Shown here: one piece after another, positions 20,248 to 45,832 of the stretch
Numbering within the stretch: the stretch's first letter is position 1
How the letters are laid out: each line of letters starts with the position of its first letter
Assembly (NCBI RefSeq): GCF_020085105.1
Contig: NC_058056.1
Location: forward strand, 14,241,929 to 14,305,928
Origin: Siniperca chuatsi
Lineage: Eukaryota > Chordata > Actinopteri > Centrarchiformes > Sinipercidae
Length of the DNA: 64,000 nt
Reading direction: 5' to 3'
The notes under the pieces: generated by a model
Seen by the model: the letters and a program-made list of their open reading frames with translations, nothing else
Database searches by the model: none
Told to the model about the DNA's origin: nothing
Translations under genes and position numbers: made by a program

Positions 20248-20803
20248 ACTGTTTCCACCAGTAGAAAGCAGTGCACCAGCAGTGGTGTACCATATATTGA
20301 GGTATACCTAATATTGTGATAATTCATTTTTAATTCTTTCTGTGTTCAATTTATTTTTATTTGTCATTACAAGCTGGTTGAATTAAAATGTGTTCTCATG
20401 GTGATGCAGTAGGTTGAGATTAACTATCAAATATCACCTTTTAGAATGTCCATTCAAATATCTACGCTTTTATATTACATTTACTTTTGACGCAAATGAA
20501 AACAGACACAAACACAAACACACACACAAGCACACAATGGCCATCATCCATTACTTTCACAGTGCTGGGACAGTTTTGCATAGGTGGCAGAAGGTCCAAA
20601 TCCCTTGTGGGGCCCAGGGATGATTAATGATTAAAGGGGATTAGGAGGAGGGTCAGGACTTGGCTACTAGTCTACTAATGATGCGGCTGTGGCTGCCTTC
20701 ATACTATCTGTGTCACTACAACTCGCCTCTCTCAGGACTAAATCTGAGGATGCCAGCTGGAAAACAAACTGAAAATGAGAGGAGAATGATGTTTCAAGGT
20801 GAA

Positions 20804-21367: not shown

Positions 21368-24300
21368 ATGATGGCGGTCTTGAGAGTTAAGTTCACAAAG
21401 ACCAAGAGGGACAAGCTGGCCCAGGTGCTGTGGATCCTGAACTGGATCTCAGTGGTGACAGGGGCCATCCTGTTCAGCCTGGGGATCTTCCTCAAGGTGG
21501 AGATCAACAAGCGAGAAGAGCTGATGGCTGAAAGGGACATCCAGTATGTGCCCAACATGCTGATTGCCGTTGGCCTCATCGCCTGTGCCATAAACTTCCT
21601 GGGTGGGAAGATCTGCTACGACTGCGTGGACACCACCAAGTTCTTGCGCTGGAAGCTGATCATGCTGCCCTACATCATATGCACCTTCTTCTTCACCTTC
21701 TGTGTGCTGGTGGGTGCTCTGATGTGTTACAGCATGCGTGGGGAGCTAGAGGAGTCTCTGAACCTGGGACTGACAGAGGCTATGAGGTTCTATAAGGACA
21801 CAGACACACCAGGACGATGTTTCCTGAAGCGCACTGTGGACATGCTGCAGATAGAGTTCCAGTGCTGTGGAAACAATGGCTATAAAGACTGGTTTCAAAT
21901 CCAGTGGATCAGCAAACGATACCTGGATATGTCCCAAAAAGAGGTGGTGGAGTAAGTGCAAATTACAGAATGAGGACACTGATTTAGTAAAGAGTATATT
22001 CACACTTAAGATGGCATAAAAAGGGACTGTATAAAAATGATCAACATAGTAAAAAAAGCTCCAACACCCTCCCCCTAAAATCTCAAAATATGTGTTAGTG
22101 CAACTCTTAATAACTTTCAGCCTTAATAACTTAAAGAGGCAAAACATAAAACAATTTTAAGATACTGTAATATACTTTCAACCTTAACATATATACATTT
22201 ATAGCAAACATAATACAGTTATGAATATTCCAGCCACTCTGCTTTAGAATAAAAAGATACTAAATAACAGGTTAAACCTGAATTATAATAACACTGATTC
22301 TGTGTCACTGGTAACTGACATATTGGTCCTACTGCATAATTTGCTCCTTTCTTATTAATCTGGCACAAGAAGACTGAAATATATGGAAATATACATTTGG
22401 GATGAGTAAAAGTTATAAGATCCTTCCCTGCTCTCCTAAAAAAAGTCAGACTAACCACCTTTCAGCAAGAAGAAAAACTGAATATCCCCCGTAATAATTG
22501 TGTACAGTCCCAAACAATGACACACTAAGGTCAAATCTTTCACACACTGCTTTCTTTTCAGCCGCTTAAGAAGTAACGTGGAGGGGAAGTACCTGATGGA
22601 CGGAGTCCCCTTCAGCTGCTGCAACATCAATTCCCCACGGCCCTGCATCCAGCAGCAGATCACCAACAACTCCGCTCACTTCAACTACGAGCACCAGACG
22701 GAGGAGCTGAACCTGTGGATGAAAGGGTGTCGCCAGGCGCTGCTGGAGTACTACACCCACATCATGCAGTCCATTGGCCTCACGGTCCTCATCACCTGGC
22801 TGTTTGAGGTAAGGAGATACAAGTTGGTAACAAAAGTATAAAATATAGCATCTCTGGTTCTGTTGCATCAATTCTGGTACTTTTTGAAAACAATTTAAAC
22901 AATGTAGTGTAATGCTAAATTGGTGGAGTTCTCTTTTAAATAGACAGCTTTCTCAATAAAGAGCTGCATTTGTGTTGGCACTACTATTGTCGCAGTAGCT
23001 GTTTCTACTTTACAACTCTTTGAAATTATTGTTTATCTTAAAACAATTTGAAATATGAGTCATTATAACATAAATCACTTCAACAGTGACAAGAAAAGAT
23101 TGGCTATTGGCTGTTTTTCATTAAAAAAAAGATTTATAGATACTTGTGGAGGACATGATCAGTGTCACCTCAGCCATTGCATTAACACTGTTATTGCACA
23201 TACACTTGCAGTACTAATCCTTGAGTAAATCTCCACTGTCGTATTATCTCTGGGTCATCCATGCAGCACATGAAGTGGACTTAGTTGCATATCTATATAT
23301 GTGTATATTAGTTGCATACATTCATATGTTAAATCAGGTTTCTCTGCAACAATTTGAAATGCTGTCACCATACCAAAATGTTTAGAATTTCTTGCTCTGA
23401 AGGTTCAGTTAGGGCCTAATTCAGTAATAGTGGTAGGGGACTGTAGATCTACTATTACAAGCTCCATGGACAAAATAGCAGATCTCCTCTCTCAGTATTC
23501 TGATGTTGAATTAATTGTTGTGGGTGACTTTAATCTGAATTGGCTGAATAATTCATCTGATCATCTCAAGGAGGTCAGTAGTAACCTCAATTTATCCCAG
23601 CTGGTTACAGAACCCACTAGGCCAAATTTGAAAGACTACTCTAGGTCTACTCTAATTAAGTTCATCTTTTCCAAAAGGATTGACAGAATTATTGCCTGTG
23701 GTGTCTTTGACCTAGGAATTAGTCATCATTGCCCTATAGTATGTATTAGAAATATTCGGTTAAAACAGATAAAATCTCATACGGTTACAAAGCGAAATAT
23801 GATACATTTAATGATCAAGCCTTTTTAACTGACCTTTTCCATAGCGACATACACTATACATCTGAAATCCCAGATGTTGAAATGGCACTGGATTTTTTTC
23901 ACAAAAAATCTTCTCTAAGTCATTAACAAACATGCACCATTCAAAAAGCTTGGAATAAAAGATACATCAACTCCTTGGTTTTCACTGAATTATTATCTTT
24001 ATTTAAGGAAAGGAACAGAGCCTGGTCTCTTGAAAGACCCTCAGGGGCTCCATTCCATTGATCATCATTTAGACAGTTTAGAAATAAATGCGCATCATCT
24101 GTGAGAAACACTAAATCTAATTATTATTCATATTTAATTACTAGTTCCTATTCACATCCTGCAAAATTTGAAACCAGTGAACTCACAAACAAAACCACTA
24201 TTTCCCTACCTGTACATATTAATTGTGGTGAATGTTTGATTTCTGAACAGGAATAGGTTTAGCTTTCAATAGACACTTTGCTGATACTGTGCATTTATTT

Positions 24301-26054
24301 GAAAAGGATTATAATCTTATTAATAATGATTGTGTTTGTACCATGAACCATGTTTCTCAGTTTACCTTTCAGCCCTTCACTCCTAGTGATATATTCAAAG
24401 CATTGCAAGCCATTGAAACCAGGAGTTAAACTGGAGAGGATACAATGGATCCTTTTTTTCTAAGACTGTCCGCTCTATTTATTACAAAGCAATTAACACA
24501 TATATTTAATCTTTCTATCACAACAGGCATATTTCCTAGTGTTTGGATGTCGGCCCATGTAACTCCACTACATAAAGGAGGTGATAGAAATTATATAGAT
24601 AATTACAGACCAATCGCTAAATTATCTTGTCTAGCAAAAATCCTGGAATCTTTGGTAAATGACCAGCTCAAGGCATTTCTTTCAAGTCACTCTGTATTAA
24701 GTCTGCACCAATCTGGATTTAAAGCTAATCACGGCACTATTTCAGCTATTACATTAGTTACAAATAATATAGTATCCGCTTTAGACAATAAGAAACATTG
24801 TGTTGCCCTTTTTATAGATCTGTCAAAAGCTTTTGATACAGTCGATCATCCTTTGCTCTTACTAAGGTTATATAGTATTGGCTTTGATGGAAAGGCTTGT
24901 GATTGGTTCCACAATGATTTATTTGACTTCAGAGTGTGAAGTCTGAGTTCTTGCCGGGGTCCTGTCCTCTTCACCATTTATATTAATGATATTGTCTCTT
25001 CAATGAGTGGCTGTCATGTCCATCTTTATGCTGATGACACTACTGTGTATCGTCTTGGTGATTCTGTACAACTAGCCATTAAGAACCTGCAATTTTCCTC
25101 TAATGCTCTACAAGATGCTCTTATTAATCTTAAACTGGTACTTATTGAAAATAAAACAAAATTCATGCTGTTTACCAGACAGAGATATTGATTATAATAG
25201 TATGCATATATCCACTGCGAATGGATCTTACATTGAGAGAGATACTAAATATAAATATCCTGGCATCTGGCTTGATGAGAAAATTACATTTAAATACCAT
25301 ATGAACAATCTTGTCAGCAAACTGCGTCAAATAATTGGCTTCTTTTACAAAAATAGAACCAAGGACTAGTAGAAAGAGGATTGTTGAGGCAGTTTTCCTC
25401 AGGCAATGAGGCCCACGGCAATCGGCATGTTGGGCACATACTATATGTCCCTCTCAGCCATCAGCTCTTCTCGTTTGTTGATGTGTATGATTTTTCTTTA
25501 TTCTCATGTGTGTTTGTCCTATTCATTTTTTACTTATATGTAACTCAACATCATTGAAAATCAGGGCAACCTCAATGGTTCTTTAATTAAAGGTTTGAAA
25601 TGAAATGATATATCAGTTTCTAAAACGTATCTGTCACAGAGCTGCAGATACAAACTAGGTACAAAATGACAGCCATATGGAGGAAACAAACAAAACTACT
25701 TCTTTGACCTCTTGTATCATGATTTGTGTTCACATTTTGTGTGATGTTCTCACTAATATGCATCTGTGTGTCTTGTTTTAGCTCTCAGTGTTGACAGGGG
25801 TTCGTTTCCTCCAGACCTCTCTGGAAAATGTGCTGAGACAGGGCGACCCCAACTCTGAGTCTGACGGCTGGCTGCTGGAAAACAGCTTTATGGAAACGGC
25901 CCGCACCAACCTGAACATCATCAAGAGCCTTGGCAAGAGCAACCACATAGACATAGCCAACAATGGAGACCCCAACATTAATGTTCCCTCCACCTCTAAA
26001 GCACACTATGGGCCAGACAATGTGCCACCAAAGCAAACACCTGAAGCCAGTTGA
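21368..26054 (+). CDS. prph2: Peripherin-2-type photoreceptor tetraspanin
   Basis: Three exons (21368-21951, 22562-22808, 25782-26054) join to 1104 nt, 367 residues (366 if the second of two adjacent ATGs is used; human PRPH2 is 346). Exon structure matches human PRPH2/ROM1. Four membrane segments are visible at about 20-42, 62-82, 100-122 and 265-285. The large disc-lumen loop keeps the family marks [36 protein letters not shown] and GCR, which supply the conserved cysteines, and NNSAH, the PRPH2-type glycosylation site. The product shapes rims of rod and cone outer-segment discs by oligomerising with itself or ROM1. The gene is tail-to-tail with ubr1, as human PRPH2 is with UBR2, so it may be a duplicate (prph2-like) that mammals lack. 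Intron 2 carries a LINE and an inverted fragment of exon 1. An AATAAA lies at 26192-26197. Confidence 0.93.
23420..25607 (+). mobile_element. Degenerate L2-like (Jockey-superfamily) LINE in prph2 intron 2
   Basis: An apurinic-endonuclease remnant shows [10 protein letters not shown] and a degraded SDH motif (GISHHCPI) at 23430-23760. Reverse transcriptase follows at 24445-25366, with [35 protein letters not shown] (motif A) and YADDTTVY (motif C). The frames are broken by several stops and shifts, so the copy is dead. The coding part stops abruptly after [10 protein letters not shown] at about 25399 and is followed by an inverted piece of prph2 exon 1, then a 3' tail ending AATTAAAGGTTTGAAATGAA. 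Clade assignment is by memory of the motif set. Confidence 0.8.
25400..25482 (-). pseudogene. Inverted partial copy of prph2 exon 1 inside intron 2
   Basis: The reverse complement of 25400-25482 aligns without gaps to prph2 exon 1 at 21503-21585: 83 positions, 7 mismatches (about 92% identity). Read in the exon frame, five of the seven differences are synonymous, one changes Leu to Pro and one turns a Gln codon into TAG. It replaces the C-terminal reverse-transcriptase segment of the surrounding LINE. Confidence 0.9.

Positions 26055-28749: not shown

Positions 28750-28842
<93 letters not shown>
28750..28842. repeat. (TG)n / (CA)n microsatellite in the ubr1 3' UTR
   Basis: About 93 nt of uninterrupted TG. 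In ubr1 mRNA sense it is a (CA)46 tract starting about 85 nt after the stop codon. CA-rich RNA can bind hnRNP L, but no role is shown here. Confidence 0.95.
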
Positions 28843-45427: not shown

Positions 45428-45593
45428 GAAGAAGAAGAAGAAGAAGAAGAAGAAGAAGAAGAAGAAGAAGAAGAAGAAGAAGAAGAAGAAGAAGAAGAAG
45501 AAGAAGAAGAAGAAGAAGAAGAAGAAGAAGAAGAAGAAGAAGAAGAAGAAGAAGAAGAAGAAGAAGAAGAAGAAGAAGAAGAAGAAGAAGAAG
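45428..45593 (+). repeat. (GAA)n trinucleotide tract, about 55 units
   Basis: About 166 nt of uninterrupted GAA, just inside the left target-site duplication of the LINE and about 560 bp from the ubr1 start codon. Long GAA/TTC can form triplex DNA, as in the FXN expansion; no effect is shown here. Confidence 0.96.
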
Positions 45594-45832
45594 ACTTCCC
45601 GTGGAGGAGCGAGGCGCTGAATTCGAGTGACTGTCGGCGTCTTATCTAGGACTGGCGGTTGGCATAAACTGGTTTGTGACTGGATCGGGATGACAACACA
45701 GGTAGAAAATGAGGAAGACGATATGTAGTTTGATGACTGGACTCCGGTTTGTAGAAGAGGGAGAGGTAAAGCAAAGACGAGACAAAGAAGAGGAGGTGAG
45801 GGCGTCTGCCAGCCAGAGCAGTAAAAGAAGCT

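Follow-up and report, generated by a model that had tools for sequence, protein, structure and literature searches.

Organization of the prph2 locus

The window, that is the whole stretch of 64,000 nucleotides of Siniperca chuatsi DNA analysed here, carries on its forward strand a gene of three coding segments which we designate prph2. The coding part of exon 1 (21371..21951) begins with the ATG at 21371 and is followed immediately by the donor GTAAGT; exon 2 (22562..22808, 247 bp) is followed by the donor GTAAGG, and the coding part of exon 3 occupies positions 25782..26054. The three exons, with GT/AG borders, join into an intact open frame of 366 amino acids with no internal stop, whose product is a tetraspanin (PF00335, E 5.8e-35). 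The name prph2 was kept because Peripherin-2 (7zw1_A, E 3.1e-139), the best PDB match of the product, outscores ROM1 (7zw1_B, E 1.3e-69). Intron 2 (22809..25781, 2973 bp, plus strand) houses a LINE and, inside it, the short inverted copy of exon 1 described below, hereafter the patch.

Besides the patch, exon 1 has four relatives in the genome, located on C16 (74% identical), C14, C11 and C20. The relative on C16 (L008, C16:28814000-28819000) is a second peripherin-2-like gene, its exon 1 displaying 74% identity in DNA and 71% in protein, and is probably a teleost duplicate.

Other features of the window include an uninterrupted GAA array at 45428-45594 (55.7 copies, 167 bp, 100% matches), which is long for a pure trinucleotide tract, and a pure TG array of 46 copies at 28751-28842, downstream of prph2; the latter, together with a CA-rich segment at 20497-20537, forms low-complexity inverted repeats that span the whole of prph2. 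Scans of the window with Rfam (gathering scores) and ARAGORN found nothing.

An inverted copy of exon 1 lies in intron 2

The patch comprises the 83 bp at 25400..25482 (minus strand), which are identical at 76 of 83 positions to the reverse complement of 21503..21585, its source segment in exon 1 as located by both genome search and alignment; there are 7 mismatches and 0 gaps. The two arms are separated by 3814 bases, with exon 2 placed between them, and their similarity stops abruptly at both ends. The coordinates, the 83-bp length, the antisense orientation and the 7 mismatches given by an earlier, sequence-only reading of this locus were all exact on realignment, and the presence of an inverted exon 1 copy in intron 2 is confirmed as a real observation.

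When the 83-bp fragment was searched against the 719 Mb assembly at E 0.001, skipping simple repeats and very common words, two matches were obtained, the patch itself and exon 1; the E value of the latter (9e-26) rules out a chance similarity. Within the window, a self-comparison filtered for low complexity (E 1e-4) gave the patch and exon 1 as the sole repeat pair of at least 40 bp, while an unfiltered one of the 20-30 kb part returned TG/CA-type inverted pairs up to 40 nt as well. The fragment showed no match at E 1e-3 to any of the relatives on C16, C14, C11 and C20, and for this reason the host prph2 is the likeliest donor. An origin from a prph2 paralogue present in the genome, which had been suggested previously, is not supported, as even the closest one, on C16, has only 74% identity to exon 1 and gives no match with the fragment; the other half of that suggestion, a divergent allele as the donor, is possible.

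The arrangement was judged from the assembled sequence, in which a chimeric inverted read, or a similar artefact, could conceivably have produced the patch. This explanation is hardly credible, since a chimera would be nearly equal to exon 1, whereas 7 of the 83 positions differ, 5 of these 7 being synonymous, and since a piece of the LINE is absent from this very position.

The patch replaces part of a LINE

The patch interrupts a decayed LINE, which we take to be L2/CR1-like and which has the orientation of the gene (plus strand), with relatives among loci L010-L022. The upstream part of this element, which contains a reverse-transcriptase segment, spans 23405..25399, and its 3' end region is found downstream of the patch at 25483..25613, where 21 other matches of 75-88% identity were recorded; both the 5' and the 3' limits are approximate. 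RVT_1 was detected (E = 1.5e-15) in a stop-free stretch upstream of the patch, and the LINE stretch 24413-25402 has stops in all three frames.

We compared both flanks of the patch with the rest of the genome, where the left flank (25200-25399) has at least 13 other matches and the right flank (25483-25620) at least 21. Nine of 13 other left-flank loci come within 15 bases of the junction (L010, L018, L019 and L020 stop short of it), and all nine, which are distinct loci, run on as LINE and none as exon sequence: six go on with ATCAGTTTTGGAT or a close variant, and in the other three (L013, L015 and L017) the LINE continues after small deletions of its own. Both flanks occur in order in L010, L013 and L017. 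In three distinct relatives the stretch separating the counterparts of 25399 and 25483 could be measured, being 380 bp in L013, 201 in L017 and 111 in L011.

These results exclude that the patch is a standard part of the LINE family, the condition under which the first interpretation was to be abandoned: genome-wide, the fragment matches only itself and exon 1, it is not in the family consensus, and 9 of 9 relatives lack exon sequence at this point. Because L013 holds 380 bp of LINE there, the patch replaces LINE sequence and was not merely inserted into it. That the end of the LINE coding region is replaced was also proposed before, with the boundary set exactly after a run of named codons; the replacement holds, while the boundary is off by one base, since identity with the LINE extends to 25399, a position inside the Leu codon that closes the VFL motif. 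Judged from these alignments, the patch is a deletion in the LINE which was filled by an inverted local copy.

The same data bear on the possibility that the patch arrived together with the LINE, the reverse transcriptase of the element having jumped to another template in the course of target-primed insertion. A similar age of fragment and LINE, which is possible (see below), would agree with this. However, LINE and gene run in one direction and the patch in the other, so that first-strand synthesis would need an antisense prph2 RNA or the genomic template strand, and LINE sequence is found on both sides of the patch, which would take two jumps; for these two reasons we regard such a jump as very unlikely.

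Differences between the arms, selection and age

Read in the exon frame, the changes from exon to copy are AAG-AAA, GAA-GAG, ATC-ATA, CAG-TAG, CTG-CCG, GTT-GTG and ATC-ATT, that is, five synonymous differences, one stop (CAG to TAG) and one Leu to Pro; the count of five synonymous differences in seven reported earlier is reproduced in the frame starting at the ATG in 21371. Random single changes in the fragment would be synonymous in 22-27% of cases, and five or more in seven have a probability of 0.007-0.019, depending on the transition bias. Given this synonymous excess, some of the differences probably originated on the exon side, under constraint, which suggests, as had been put forward, that the exon has been under selection since the copying; a divergent donor allele is a possible alternative source of the excess.

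In order to polarise the seven differences we used a single outgroup, the C16 paralogue, in an alignment read by eye, with little result. C16 agrees with exon 1 at 21541 and 21542 (an adjacent pair) and at 21561, and the changes at these three positions, one of them making the stop, are probably specific to the copy. At 21511 and 21571 C16 agrees with the copy, weakly suggesting that the copy keeps the older base, third positions being unreliable at such a distance; at 21532 and 21580 it agrees with neither. The adjacent differences lie at 25443-25444 in the copy, where the exon has CC and the copy AT (exon strand), one of them creating the stop codon, and are possibly one double substitution.

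The age of the patch was approached through the private divergence of the LINE. Between 24400 and 25625, 42 changes were counted in 872 comparable sites (4.8%); these are unambiguous sites (41 others were ambiguous) covered by at least 4 relatives, in alignments of 75% identity or more. At this rate some 4 neutral changes are expected in a stretch of 83 bp, and the 7 seen, which are split over copy and exon, are compatible with this. In age, the patch may thus come close to the LINE insertion, seven sites being too few for finer dating.

Junctions and proposed origin of the patch

By eye, no poly(A) or poly(T) tract was seen at the edges of 25400-25482, nor were duplicated recipient bases (target-site duplication) seen on its two sides. 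With both hallmarks absent, the patch does not qualify as a class 1 templated sequence insertion or LINE-mediated insertion.

As observed, the left junction has 0-1 base of microhomology and 4 matches in the 20 flanking positions. When the family form of the LINE is used at this junction, CAG is common to LINE and exon, and the two resemble each other with interruptions (AGGCAGTTT / AGGAAGTTT); 11 or 12 of 20 positions match, depending on the family form, a value reached by 25 or 9 of 4664 gene positions, in an alignment which was picked after looking and presupposes a loss of 2 bases. This gives a hint of priming from the left end of the LINE. The right junction matches at 3 of 20 positions in the observed sequence and at 6 of 20 in the family form, with which it has AT in common if, in our reading by eye, about 11 LINE bases were later lost around AACTG repeats.

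Two features by which a templated insertion is recognised are present at this locus: an identifiable template is still in place, exon 1 inside its intact 366-aa frame, and the recipient is continuous in relatives, at the left junction in 9 of 9 loci and with both flanks in L013, L017 and L011. The local donor, the inverted orientation, the deletion in the recipient and the sharp ends all argue for this kind of event. We therefore consider it highly probable that the patch is a one-off templated insertion, an inverted local copy of exon 1 made by break repair or by replication template switching after the LINE had landed. This agrees with the original proposal that a break in the LINE was repaired with exon 1 as template, which is supported by the genome search, where nothing but exon 1 and the copy matched, and by the continuity of the LINE relatives. 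Somewhat against it, the five synonymous changes are above what is expected if both arms changed at an equal neutral rate. Also counting against it are the few matches at the junctions as they stand and the 3.8 kb between the arms, a distance well in excess of both the 100 bp scanned by MMBSearch and the 41-nt spacer of yeast foldbacks.

The sequence of events could have been as follows. The L2/CR1-like LINE would have landed first in intron 2 of prph2, and a break or a stalled fork would then have arisen within it. A free 3' DNA end would have annealed about 3.8 kb away, on the opposite strand, to exon 1 of the same gene, from which some 83 bases would have been copied before the newly made strand was joined again to the LINE beyond the break, with a loss of approximately 380 bp of LINE as judged from L013. 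Candidate pathways are microhomology-mediated break-induced replication, template switching, and a synthesis-dependent repair that end joining completes. Disease-gene rearrangements have reportedly been ascribed to replication-based mechanisms.

The template may instead have been RNA, a prph2 transcript being reverse transcribed by a LINE-encoded enzyme to fill the break, in the style of class 2 templated sequence insertions. The fragment lies wholly within one exon, so that spliced RNA and DNA are indistinguishable as its source, and class 2 insertions, which have no target-site duplication or poly(A) and show end-joining features, have had an RNA origin proposed for them (PMC5110952). On the other hand, the fragment was donated by the very gene that hosts it, from a distance of 3.8 kb, for which a DNA template needs no further assumption. 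In addition, prph2 is a photoreceptor gene, and its transcription in the germ line is expected to be rare. An RNA template is accordingly an unlikely source of the patch, and we infer that exon 1 was copied as DNA.

Possible pairing in the prph2 pre-mRNA

The duplex predicted for the two arms has an energy of -150.1 kcal/mol, compared with -56.4 for the lowest of 284 control pairs of 83-mers (300 pairs were drawn from exon 1 and intron 2, those overlapping the patch being dropped), and when the two arms and their flanks of 100 bases were folded as one joined sequence, 78 arm-to-arm pairs were predicted. On these predictions the prph2 pre-mRNA could form an 83-bp duplex of exon 1 with intron 2. 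Editing, or the circularisation of exon 2, is conceivable in principle because the arms flank exon 2. The guidance of exonic editing by intronic complementary sequences is an established principle, and ADAR enzymes favour an A opposite a C mismatch; in the predicted pairing of the arms, the A at 21532 is opposite a C.

A functional antisense copy, which would pair with exon 1 and alter editing, splicing or exon 2 circularisation, thus has the predicted energy and fold in its favour. Nevertheless, the 7 mismatches in 83 positions are about what drift predicts, and kept pairing is not visible from one genome; furthermore, 3.8 kb separate the arms, and splicing normally removes intron 2. Such a role of the modelled duplex is most improbable, and we would likewise give only a very slim chance to a one-step repair event having provided this fish lineage with an intronic antisense that guides editing or circularisation, in the form of exon 2 circles or of exon 1 editing that includes 21532. 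A function of the patch being improbable, it is best described as a neutral-looking intronic scar.

Comparison with known templated insertions

Several known systems resemble the templated insertion proposed here. MMBIR-linked templated insertions (MMB-TI) copy a template found close by in inverted form and show microhomology that is short or interrupted (PMC8421209); of the resolvable germline junctions, 138 of 155 in one donor and 135 of 148 in another had at least 1 bp of it. The patch is also a short, inverted copy of a nearby template, with possible microhomology at the left junction; in contrast to the events described there, for which MMBSearch scans 100 bp for the template, its template is 3.8 kb off, about 380 bp of the recipient were lost, and its microhomology is weakly supported.

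Class 2 templated sequence insertions, which according to PMC5110952 lack LINE hallmarks and have RNA proposed as their source, are similar in that polymorphisms of this class consist of a sequence copied from elsewhere which fills a break, with a deletion and end-joining-like junctions. They have distant genomic donors, whereas the patch was donated by its own host gene and stands inverted to it.

A single event of template switching is able to give rise to reverse-complement stems (PMC8794818), and the patch would likewise be a reverse-complement copy, produced in one event, with which the transcript could form a stem. The helices treated there are those of RNA genes, with 2 to 10 consecutive pairs, while the patch has 83 bp, a spacing of 3.8 kb and a predicted stem. 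Finally, short foldback inversions at yeast breaks range from 2 to about 150 bp with a hairpin spacer of 41 nt (PMC11724301); the patch is an inverted templated insertion at a putative break and its size falls within this range, but its spacing of 3.8 kb differs from the 41-nt loop.

In the literature searched we did not find the same arrangement, an inverted exon copy in an intron of the same gene, which does not imply its absence from print. The patch is a further example of a known mutation class, and its value is that of a clean vertebrate germ-line case of a local inverted templated insertion, in which the donor, the recipient and the lost sequence are all identifiable. If the pairing of the arms were to act, this locus would mean that a single repair event can supply a coding exon with an intronic partner strand.
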